The notes under the pieces were generated by a model, which saw nothing but the letters and a program-made list of their open reading frames with translations, was not told the origin of the DNA and did not search any database. A DNA stretch of 64,000 bases from Actinomycetes bacterium. Lineage in GTDB: Bacteria > Actinomycetota > Acidimicrobiia > Acidimicrobiales > JAJYXR01. The position numbers were made by a program, and so were the translations under genes. Where the stretch lies: the NCBI GenBank assembly GCA_021801795.1, contig JAJYXR010000030.1, positions 62,001 to 126,000 on the forward strand. The letters run 5' to 3'. Shown here piece by piece: positions 20,995-26,086 of the stretch (positions within the stretch are counted from its first letter, which is position 1; every line of letters begins with the position of its first letter).

Positions 20995-22140
20995 GTGAGT
21001 GCAGACACGCACTACGAGGTGCTTGGCGTTGAAGCCGATGCCACACAGGACGACATAAAGGCTGCCTACCGCCGTCTGAGCCGGCAGGTGCATCCCGACC
21101 AGGGGGGCTCTGGAGCGCTTTTCCGCCGGGTCACAGAGGCATACGAAACGCTCTCGGACCCTGAGCGTCGTAAAGCCTATGACGACGCGCTGCGCATGCC
21201 ACGAGGTCGACCTGAACCCGAGGAGCCGGTCGAGGAGGCTCCTGGCTGGGTCAGGGTCGACGACGTCCCGCCTGAAGGCGACGGTGCTGGTCGCACCGAC
21301 GACGGCGCAGCGGGAGGAACCGCACCCGACGGCGCAGTACCTCCACCGAGACGGACTCCGGACCCCGACGCTGACGGCAGCTTTCCCGGCGGCGAAGCCG
21401 ATACCCGGAGCGGGATCGGCCGTTTCTTCGCCCTCCATCCAGCAGGTTGCCTGGCGGGGGTGGGCATGGTGCTGATCGTCCTCCCGGGATTCCTTCGCGT
21501 CCACGGAGCCCCATCGCTCGGGATCCTCGGGTTCCTCATGGTGATCGTCGGTACCGTAGCCCTGATAGGCGGCCGCCGGGTTATCCGCAGCGGTCAGGCT
21601 CTAGGCCTGGTGGCAGCGGAAATCGATACCATGACCGGTCCGCAGTTCGAGTCGCTCCTGGAGGCGCTCTTCAGCGGGCTCGGTTGCCGGGTGTATCGCA
21701 CTGGGCACAAGGGCGGCATCGGGCCCGAGCTCGTTATCGAGCAAGAAGGCAGGCGGTCGGTGGTCATGGCGACACGGTCGGCTGTGCCTGTAGGTCGTGG
21801 CGCCGTCCAGCAGGCCATTGGCGCCAAGGCCCCCCACGGAGCTACCGGCGCCATGGTGGTCACGAATGCCACATTCACCGCACATGCGACGACGCTTGCA
21901 CGGGAACACGGGGTCGTGCTGTGGGACCGACGGGTGCTTTTCGCCGAGATGAGGCGCCACTCCCTGGCCCCCACCCAAGGACAGGGTTACCCCGCGGGAC
22001 TCTCGGGCGGAGCGCTGCTCGGGGCAGAGCTGCGGGCCGGATTCTCGATGCTCGCCAAAGCGACAGCCGTCGTGGTCGGCGTCATGGTCGTAGCCAAAGC
22101 AGCCTCGGGTACACGCCCTAGCCCGCGCCGGCGCCGGTAG
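20995..22140 (+). CDS. J-domain / membrane / degenerate Mrr-like fusion protein
   Basis: A 381-residue protein from GTG 20995. Residues 4-65 are a J-domain (HYEVLGVEADATQDDIKAAY, HPD at 33-35, FRRVTEAYETLSDPERRKAY), expected to stimulate an Hsp70 ATPase. An acidic, Pro-rich linker (70-140) leads to two membrane helices (about 147-167 and 172-193). Residues 211-318 follow the Mrr/restriction-endonuclease fold pattern: MTGPQFESLLEALFSGLGCR, GAVQQAIGAKAPHGA and MVVTNATFTAHATTLAREHG. The usual nuclease residues (GGxD and QxK) read GGIGPEL and VVMAT, so cleavage is unlikely. A last hydrophobic stretch (352-370) ends in a basic tail. Function unknown; Hsp70 recruitment to the membrane is an inference. 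Confidence 0.85.
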   Translation: MSADTHYEVLGVEADATQDDIKAAYRRLSRQVHPDQGGSGALFRRVTEAYETLSDPERRKAYDDALRMPRGRPEPEEPVEEAPGWVRVDDVPPEGDGAGRTDDGAAGGTAPDGAVPPPRRTPDPDADGSFPGGEADTRSGIGRFFALHPAGCLAGVGMVLIVLPGFLRVHGAPSLGILGFLMVIVGTVALIGGRRVIRSGQALGLVAAEIDTMTGPQFESLLEALFSGLGCRVYRTGHKGGIGPELVIEQEGRRSVVMATRSAVPVGRGAVQQAIGAKAPHGATGAMVVTNATFTAHATTLAREHGVVLWDRRVLFAEMRRHSLAPTQGQGYPAGLSGGALLGAELRAGFSMLAKATAVVVGVMVVAKAASGTRPSPRRRR

Positions 22141-22148
22141 GCCGAGCC

Positions 22149-22862
22149 GTGGCGAGGTTGCCCGCGACTCCCGGTGGCATGCCTGCACGCCGGAGCGGCG
22201 GTATCCCAGCGGAACGGGGCGAGAAGTCCCTGGCCTATGTCTCGGCCACCAGAGTCGGTTTCGAGCAGGTGCCCGACGAGATAGTAGAAGAGCTCACCGC
22301 CGAGGGGATACTGCTGGGGGAGGCCGTGGCCGCTACGGCAGAGCAGCCAGTCGCCAAGCGCCGGGCCGACGGTTCTCACTACCAGCAAGTCACGGCCTGG
22401 TGGGCCAGCACCAGGTGCTACGTCGTCCTCGATGCTCGACGGGAGCTGGCCGCTGCCGGAGAGGGCAGGCTCCGCCCCGCCGGAGCGTGGTCGGCAACCG
22501 GAAAGGTCTTTCGACTACCCGACGGCCTGGCAGTGGCCAGCTCGGTGTGGCGCCGCTCGGCCGGGACTGAGGGAGCCGGCACGACGAAGAGGCAGAGCAC
22601 CGATAACCCGCTCGATCTGCTTCCGCCCGAGGTGGTCAAGCCCGTTGCCGGCAGCCAGGCGGACGCGTGGCGGGAGTTCGGTAATGGCTGGGCCACCGAG
22701 ACCGTCGTCGCCTCGCTACTGTCCGCGCAGAGGATAAGGGTTCTCCGTGCCACCAGGAAGGCCGCTTCCAGGCGGGCTCTGGATGCTGCCGACTGGACAC
22801 TGGAAACGATCGACGCCCCCGTCACGGGGCACCAGGAGTTCTCCGTCCGGCCCTGGACCTAG
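22149..22862 (+). CDS. Unknown soluble protein downstream of J-domain gene
   Basis: A 237-residue protein starting (GTG 22149) eight bases after the J-domain fusion gene, so probably in the same transcript. I do not recognise a family. The first 25 residues are basic and Gly/Pro rich. The middle has AWWASTRCYVVLDARRELAA and the end WATETVVASLLSAQRIRVLR followed by a Lys/Arg-rich stretch. No signal peptide or membrane helix is visible. Codon use looks like its neighbours, which supports that it is a real gene. Its partner gene suggests a linked function, nothing more. Confidence 0.6.
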   Translation: MARLPATPGGMPARRSGGIPAERGEKSLAYVSATRVGFEQVPDEIVEELTAEGILLGEAVAATAEQPVAKRRADGSHYQQVTAWWASTRCYVVLDARRELAAAGEGRLRPAGAWSATGKVFRLPDGLAVASSVWRRSAGTEGAGTTKRQSTDNPLDLLPPEVVKPVAGSQADAWREFGNGWATETVVASLLSAQRIRVLRATRKAASRRALDAADWTLETIDAPVTGHQEFSVRPWT

Positions 22863-24730: not shown

Positions 24731-26086
24731 GTGCCCCACCGACCACCAGCGCGATCGCGGGCTGAGCGAGCAGGACGGATCTCTGGCCTCCCCGGCCGCG
24801 GGTCAGTCGGCCACATAGCTGGTGGCCGGGGCCCGGGTCTGCCGGGATCTGGTGGCCGGGGCCCGGGTCTGCCGGGATCTGGTGGCCGGGGCCCGGGTCT
24901 GCCGGGATCTGGTGGCCGGGGCCCGGGTCTGCCGGGATCTGGTGGCCGGGGCCCGGGTGGCGACGCACCGGATCCTCACCGCCTCGGAGAGCACCGCCAC
25001 ATGGCTGCTGACGAGCTTGCCTCCAGGCTGGGCACCGAGGCAGAGCCGTTCCTTCTGGACGTGCGTGAGCCGGACGAGGTGACCGCCTGGCCGATGCCCC
25101 GCGCTCGTAACATTCCCCTCGGCCTACTCGGGGAGCACCTCGGGGACCTGCCTGTGGATCGGGAGATCGTGGTCCTGTGCGCATCGGGGAATCGCTCGAG
25201 AGCTGCCAGCCATGCCCTTGCAAGAGCAGGGTTCCAGGTGGCGAACCTGGCCGGCGGCATGGCCGCCTGGGGTTCGGTATACGACGAGGCCGAGGTGAAG
25301 GTGGGCTCAGCACGGATCATCCAGTTCCGCCGCAGAGGGAAGGGTTGCCTCTCCTACCTCGTCGGATCCGGGGACGAGGCATTCGCTCTGGATGTCTCAC
25401 TGGACATCGACCGCTACGCGCAAGCAGCCGCGGCGAACGGCTGGCACATCACCAGGGTGCTCGATACCCATCTGCATGCCGACCACCTTTCGGGTAGCCG
25501 CCTGCTGGCGCTTAGGACCGGAGCGAGCCTGCACCTGAACCCGGCAGACACCTTCGACTTCGACTACGTCCCGCTCAGCCACGAGGAGCAGCTTTCCCTG
25601 CCCGGCGATACGGTGGTGTCCGTCGCTACCCTCCACACACCAGGCCACACCCAGGGATCGACGCTGTTCCGGGTGGATGCTCCTGGCGAGCGAGCTGCCC
25701 TCATCACCGGCGACACCCTGTTCGTGGACGGCGTGGGCAGACCCGACCTGGCCGAGCGCGCCGAGGAGTTCGCGCGGAACCTGCATCGCTCACTGCACCA
25801 GCACGTGCTCGGACTTCCCGACGACACCCTCGTTCTGCCTGCCCACTACGGTAGCGAGGTACAGGTATGTCCGGGCGTGCCCGTAGCTGCGAGCATCGGG
25901 GAGCTCCGCCGTAGCCTGGAGCCCCTGAGCCTGGACGAGGACGCCTTCGTGGCCTGGGCAGCCTCCAGGGTGACCCCCCGCCCGCCGAACTACGAAGATA
26001 TCGTCACCGCGAACATGGGCAGGAGCCCCCAGGATGCCCTGGCTCTCCGCCACCTGGAAAGCGGACCCAACCGCTGCTCTGCCTGA
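24731..26086 (+). CDS. Rhodanese-MBL fusion, persulfide dioxygenase-like
   Basis: 451 residues if started at GTG 24731, which has GGAGG nine bases upstream; an ATG at 25001 (GGAGAG upstream) would remove a 90-residue leader made largely of four GGRGPGLPGS repeats. From residue 91: a rhodanese domain with DVREPDEV and active-site Cys150 (VVLCASGNRSRA), then a metallo-beta-lactamase domain with the metal motif THLHADHLSG (246-255), TPGHTQGSTLF, ITGDTLFVDGVGRPDL and PAHYGSEVQV. MBL domains of this type oxidise glutathione- or low-molecular-weight persulfide to sulfite; rhodanese moves the sulfane sulfur. In CstB the order is MBL first. The upstream CstR-like operator suggests induction by sulfide or polysulfide. 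Confidence 0.88.
   Translation: MPHRPPARSRAERAGRISGLPGRGSVGHIAGGRGPGLPGSGGRGPGLPGSGGRGPGLPGSGGRGPGLPGSGGRGPGGDAPDPHRLGEHRHMAADELASRLGTEAEPFLLDVREPDEVTAWPMPRARNIPLGLLGEHLGDLPVDREIVVLCASGNRSRAASHALARAGFQVANLAGGMAAWGSVYDEAEVKVGSARIIQFRRRGKGCLSYLVGSGDEAFALDVSLDIDRYAQAAAANGWHITRVLDTHLHADHLSGSRLLALRTGASLHLNPADTFDFDYVPLSHEEQLSLPGDTVVSVATLHTPGHTQGSTLFRVDAPGERAALITGDTLFVDGVGRPDLAERAEEFARNLHRSLHQHVLGLPDDTLVLPAHYGSEVQVCPGVPVAASIGELRRSLEPLSLDEDAFVAWAASRVTPRPPNYEDIVTANMGRSPQDALALRHLESGPNRCSA
24821..24958. repeat. 4.6 tandem copies of a 30-bp GC-rich unit
   Basis: Units at 24821-24850, 24851-24880, 24881-24910 and 24911-24940 are identical, followed by 18 bases of a fifth. Each carries the near-palindromic GGCCGGGGCCCGGG. 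In the frame of the rhodanese-MBL gene a unit encodes GGRGPGLPGS. The array stands between two plausible start codons, so it is either a translated collagen-like leader or an untranslated leader able to fold strongly. Confidence 0.95.

Follow-up and report, generated by a model that had tools for sequence, protein, structure and literature searches.

Class C membrane J-proteins such as DjlA have an HPD-bearing J-domain and a membrane segment, and carry neither a G/F region nor a zinc finger. Among nucleases, the Mrr-type enzymes MspJI and AspBHI share the restriction-endonuclease fold. A link between a J-protein and a bacterial defence response has been described for bNACHT25, whose phage sensing requires DnaJ (PMC12169576). 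We found no description of a J-domain/Mrr fusion, or of such a protein paired with the partner gene reported below, in open-access text.

The window, that is, the whole stretch of 64,000 nucleotides that was analysed, contains an intact open reading frame with a GTG start, encoding a single protein that joins a J-domain to an Mrr domain. Its GC content by codon position (0.76/0.55/0.72) is of the coding type. The original prediction was that an intact J-domain, two membrane helices and an Mrr fold follow one another in this protein, and the reading frame, Pfam and the full-length homologues all confirmed that order. The J-domain retains its HPD, and two hydrophobic segments correspond to the predicted membrane helices. 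Pfam returned DnaJ, Mrr_cat and NA-iREase1 only; like class C J-domain proteins, the window protein has an HPD J-domain and lacks the DnaJ zinc finger and C-terminal substrate domain. The linker between the J-domain and the membrane segments is of low complexity. Two features were absent from the first description: the GWVRVDD motif in this linker, and a third hydrophobic stretch followed by an Arg-rich tail at residues 348–381. Owing to the latter, the topology predicted for the protein is uncertain. The features are collected in the table.

Table. Features of the J-protein gene and of the gene downstream of it (positions are those of the window)
Feature	Position	Strand	Basis or remark
Membrane J-domain protein (J-TM-TM-Mrr), 381 aa	20995–22140	+	ORF, Pfam, full-length homologues
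J-domain, residues 5–63	21007–21183	+	PF00226, E 1.4e-20; HPD (residues 33–35) at 21091–21099
Linker motif GWVRVDD, residues 84–90, candidate partner docking site	21244–21264	+	W...D motif counts
Predicted transmembrane hairpin, segments 145–163 and 175–193	21427–21573	+	Kyte-Doolittle 2.05 and 2.37 over 19 residues
Degenerate Mrr catalytic domain, restriction-endonuclease fold, residues 210–316	21622–21942	+	PF04471, MspJI fold match, residue loss
GPEL	21721–21732	+	Inside degenerate Mrr domain
VVMATR	21760–21777	+	Inside degenerate Mrr domain
C-terminal GALLGAEL, hydrophobic helix and RRRR tail	22009–22137	+	Present in similar form in relatives with Mrr and in several without it
Beta-rich partner protein (237 aa), no known family	22149–22862	+	8 nt past the J-gene stop

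The Mrr_cat profile (PF04471) matched the window protein with 68 bits (E 1e-18), compared with a curated cut-off of 21. An AlphaFold model of residues 192–381, built from two sequences only, had a pLDDT of about 75–96 in the core; its mean of 67 was lower because of the tail. MspJI (E 1.3e-6), AF1548 and AspBHI were the best PDB matches of this model, in agreement with the restriction-endonuclease-like fold that had been proposed. In a gap-free alignment, the GADL...VVQAKR of the intact relatives corresponds to GPEL...VVMATR in the window protein. The catalytic Asp is thus replaced by Glu, and the Gln and Lys of QAK by Met and Thr, as the first reading of the sequence had held, and the D...(E/Q)xK signature of Type IV Mrr enzymes is missing. 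The domain is 56% identical to that of the G864 protein, and the conservation of residues between and around the substitutions indicates point changes in a kept fold, not a frameshift. In the preferred explanation given below, the Mrr domain of the window copy is a catalytically dead, decayed effector. The dead fold may nonetheless have kept a capacity to bind nucleic acid or protein.

When the same domain order was searched for in other actinobacteria, homologues were found in ten further genomes, which represent several families of one order, that of the window. The active-site Asp and Lys are kept in six of them (G009, G212, G141, G864, G915 and G972, with His for Gln in G141). The GADL..QxK residues are conserved in the intact relatives, which may be active nucleases. 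The remaining four have lost the active-site Lys, which is replaced by Thr in G1055, Arg in G1052, Glu in G197 and His in G929. In the tree of partner proteins, many forks of which are weakly supported, G1055 and G1052 cluster with the Lys-keeping G141 and not with the window. G197 and G929 come from a different family within the order, and their proteins with a dead Mrr domain have no partner. Taken together, the tree grouping and the position of G197 and G929 suggest that decay of the Mrr site probably occurred several times.

The gene downstream, at 22149, had been put forward as a possible partner of the J-protein. Its product had no match in Pfam, NCBIfam or PADLOC, and a single marginal one in PHROG (E 0.04). 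An AlphaFold (AF2) model based on four sequences was beta-rich (pLDDT 80.6, pTM 0.75). This model had no fold match at E ≤ 0.001 among PDB structures and viral models, and the partner profile gave chance matches only against PDB sequences. An internal duplication was weakly indicated by hhalign (P 0.037, probability 1.4%). Across 16 partners, R71, W85, R98, W114, L158-P159, G168, E184, R203 and W216 are invariant.

Relatives of the partner occur in 17 genomes, all of the one actinobacterial order. Nine of these belong to an even sample of 298 genomes of the order, and the others are G864, G915, G972, G974, G1027, G1044, G1052 and G1055. Searches at phylum and class level found the partner nowhere outside this order, and it had no match in the plasmids, phages and viral contigs searched. 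The match in G1027 (L103:4672-5244) has an internal stop and a shorter open frame, for which either a sequencing error or damage to the gene may be responsible. Occurrence within the order is patchy. In genus g70, for example, the partner was listed for three genomes only (G141 and two further), and most sampled genomes are without it. Such patchiness within well-sampled genera marks it as an accessory gene.

In 16 of the 17 genomes, the gene immediately upstream of the partner, on the same strand, encodes a J-protein predicted to have membrane segments, which supports the proposed partnership. Only in G048 does the partner have no J-protein beside it; a membrane J-protein is encoded elsewhere in that genome. 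The 16 linked units differ in their Mrr domain: six have one with the full site or with Asp and Lys, three have lost the Lys (the window, G1055 and G1052), and seven have no Mrr domain. The original view that a dead nuclease is the essence of the protein is hence not supported. The Mrr domain is rather an optional module, decayed in several lineages, and the constant part consists of the J-domain, the linker motif, the membrane region and the partner. The slot that this module occupies is the one between the predicted membrane hairpin and the Arg-rich tail.

The HPD is retained in the partner-linked J-proteins, except for the membrane copies of G086 (L033:7981-8967) and G176 (L049:2508-3491), which have RPD. 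In G040, G086 and G176, the partner is followed by another J-protein, which bears LRV/HEAT-like repeats; in G086 and G176 this second protein (LRV repeats) keeps the HPD. A division of labour between the RPD membrane copy and the HPD second copy is possible in these two genomes. It may be noted that two Mrr-less membrane J-proteins without a partner (L084:8013-8636 and L085:2863-3504) have a similar tail, hydrophobic and basic with AEL..G, which suggests a wider family of such tailed J-proteins in the order.

The linker of the membrane J-proteins is variable apart from a W...D motif. This motif was present in all 16 partner-linked proteins and in one of 11 unlinked ones (G296, which has no partner); the corresponding Fisher p of 1.3e-6 overstates the evidence, since related sequences entered the count as if they were independent, and the counting followed on the motif having been noticed. 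GWxRxD, which reads GWVRVDD in the window, is the best candidate for the site at which the partner would dock.

Most flanking genes examined were ordinary metabolic or regulatory ones. Those near the window copy encode AtuA, an acyl-CoA dehydrogenase, an SGNH protein, an ABC1 kinase and a rhodanese/metallo-beta-lactamase protein. The last of these reading frames (24731–26086) opens with tandem GPGLPGSGGR repeats at 24780–24900, and its true start may lie further downstream. Location in a defence island was rejected, as restriction-type neighbours were seen at just two loci. In G141, an HNH_2 restriction-type endonuclease gene (L051:7323-8246) adjoins the partner. In G040, an SNF2 helicase gene (L032:595-4493; BrxH/DrmD-like in PADLOC) and an adjoining 697-aa unknown gene lie upstream of the J unit.

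The explanation that we prefer, with a probability of about 0.5, is that the two genes encode a membrane-tethered DnaK co-chaperone and its dedicated soluble partner, with a nuclease as optional effector, decayed in this copy. The N-terminal J-domain would recruit the DnaK of the cell to the inner face of the membrane; we infer this recruitment of Hsp70 from the HPD motif and from the presence of a DnaK gene in the window genome. The partner would dock on GWxRxD in the disordered linker, and would tune the activity or deliver a signal or a client. As the effector, an Mrr nuclease may occupy the slot between the hairpin, which is predicted to insert into the membrane, and the Arg-rich tail. Such an effector was probably present in ancestors, where it would have cleaved DNA near the membrane. 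With the effector dead in the window genome, the remaining function would be chaperone recruitment, and perhaps binding of DNA or protein. A role in defence is plausible, given the patchiness, the module variation, the Mrr kinship and the J-protein precedent (PMC12169576). Against a co-chaperone with a dedicated partner stand the lone partner of G048, the motif without a partner in G296, the partnerless proteins of G197 and G929, and the ordinary genes of most neighbourhoods.

If the preferred explanation is true, one compact unit brings together a nuclease fold, the membrane and the recruitment of Hsp70. It offers a partner without a confident fold match, together with a short candidate docking motif for which two point mutations would suffice as a test. 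The natural series of proteins with the full site or Asp and Lys, with the lysine lost and with the domain absent could tell what remains after decay of a nuclease. In a broader version, which we advance only tentatively, the unit would be a chaperone-controlled membrane effector system. Here a DnaK-recruiting J scaffold, with the partner on the linker motif, would direct swappable effectors (the Mrr nuclease, the LRV repeats of the second J-protein, or none) against incoming DNA or stressed clients.

The strongest competing explanation, though an unlikely one, is membrane-bound restriction gated by chaperones. The Mrr domain would be central, the J-domain with DnaK and the partner would restrain it until a phage or plasmid enters, and the window copy would have decayed. 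The full site or Asp and Lys kept in six relatives, the patchy spread, and the HNH and SNF2 genes at L051 and L032 are consistent with this, as is the requirement of bNACHT25 for DnaJ (PMC12169576). The Mrr domain is also similar to defence nucleases in PADLOC, those of the ZorD type among them, and to plasmid-borne Mrr 'restriction endonucleases' with membrane segments. Yet partner and J-protein are kept in the seven of 16 units that have no Mrr domain and in the three that are Lys-less, most loci examined lie outside defence islands, and the partner is absent from the phages, plasmids and viral contigs searched.

It is also doubtful, and more so, that the unit serves quality control of membrane proteins. 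It would then be a DjlA-like envelope co-chaperone whose Mrr fold is reused to bind protein or nucleic acid, with the partner as client adaptor. The constancy of the J-domain and membrane region, the decay or absence of Mrr in ten of 16 units, and the LRV/HEAT J-protein adjoining the partner in G040, G086 and G176 would fit. A housekeeping gene would not usually be so patchy and accessory in its distribution, however, and the strict GADL/QxK conservation in several relatives would be left unexplained. A toxin–antitoxin pair of Mrr nuclease and partner, which two short and tightly spaced genes might suggest, is very improbable, as the partner persists at seven loci without Mrr and at three with a Lys-less Mrr, and dead Mrr forms exist without a partner. 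That a frameshift or the assembly joined an mrr gene to a dnaJ-like one, an artefact for which no supporting point was found, can be dismissed, as the homologues are single open frames in ten further genomes of several families.

Compared with DjlA, the window protein is similar in its HPD J-domain, its membrane segment and its lack of a G/F region and zinc finger. It differs in that the J-domain is N-terminal, the membrane hairpin is internal, and an Mrr module and a partner are present. The NCBIfam DjlA equivalog model scored 24.1 bits, far below its cut-off of 162, and matched the J-domain only. The family score and the fold are common to the window protein and to Mrr_cat, MspJI and AspBHI; unlike these enzymes, it has the catalytic Asp and QxK replaced and is tethered to a J-domain. 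The same region is weakly similar to NA-iREase1 (PF22722, NACHT-associated inactive REase). Membership was rejected for the window protein (22.1, cut-off 27), whereas the four relatives tested scored above the cut-off, and the match thus reflects clan similarity. Among the PADLOC 2023 models, the partner had no match and the J-protein matched through its Mrr region only, so that no known anti-phage system there matched both genes. The bNACHT25 response likewise couples a J-protein to bacterial defence, but that J-protein is the housekeeping DnaJ of the host, acting in trans (PMC12169576).

For the nuclease part, the closest annotated proteins are Mrr 'restriction endonucleases' of Bacillota plasmids, e.g., WP_310774679 (Brevibacillus pBbsI) and WP_278154855 (Bacillus pID-A02). 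Among plasmid proteins they matched the Mrr part best (about 37–50% identity) and, like the J-protein, have one or more hydrophobic segments, N-terminal in their case, followed by an Mrr_cat-like domain. They lack the J-domain, the linker motif, the Arg-rich tail and the partner, and have instead a Cys-rich, zinc-ribbon-like tail and the GADL and QAK residues.
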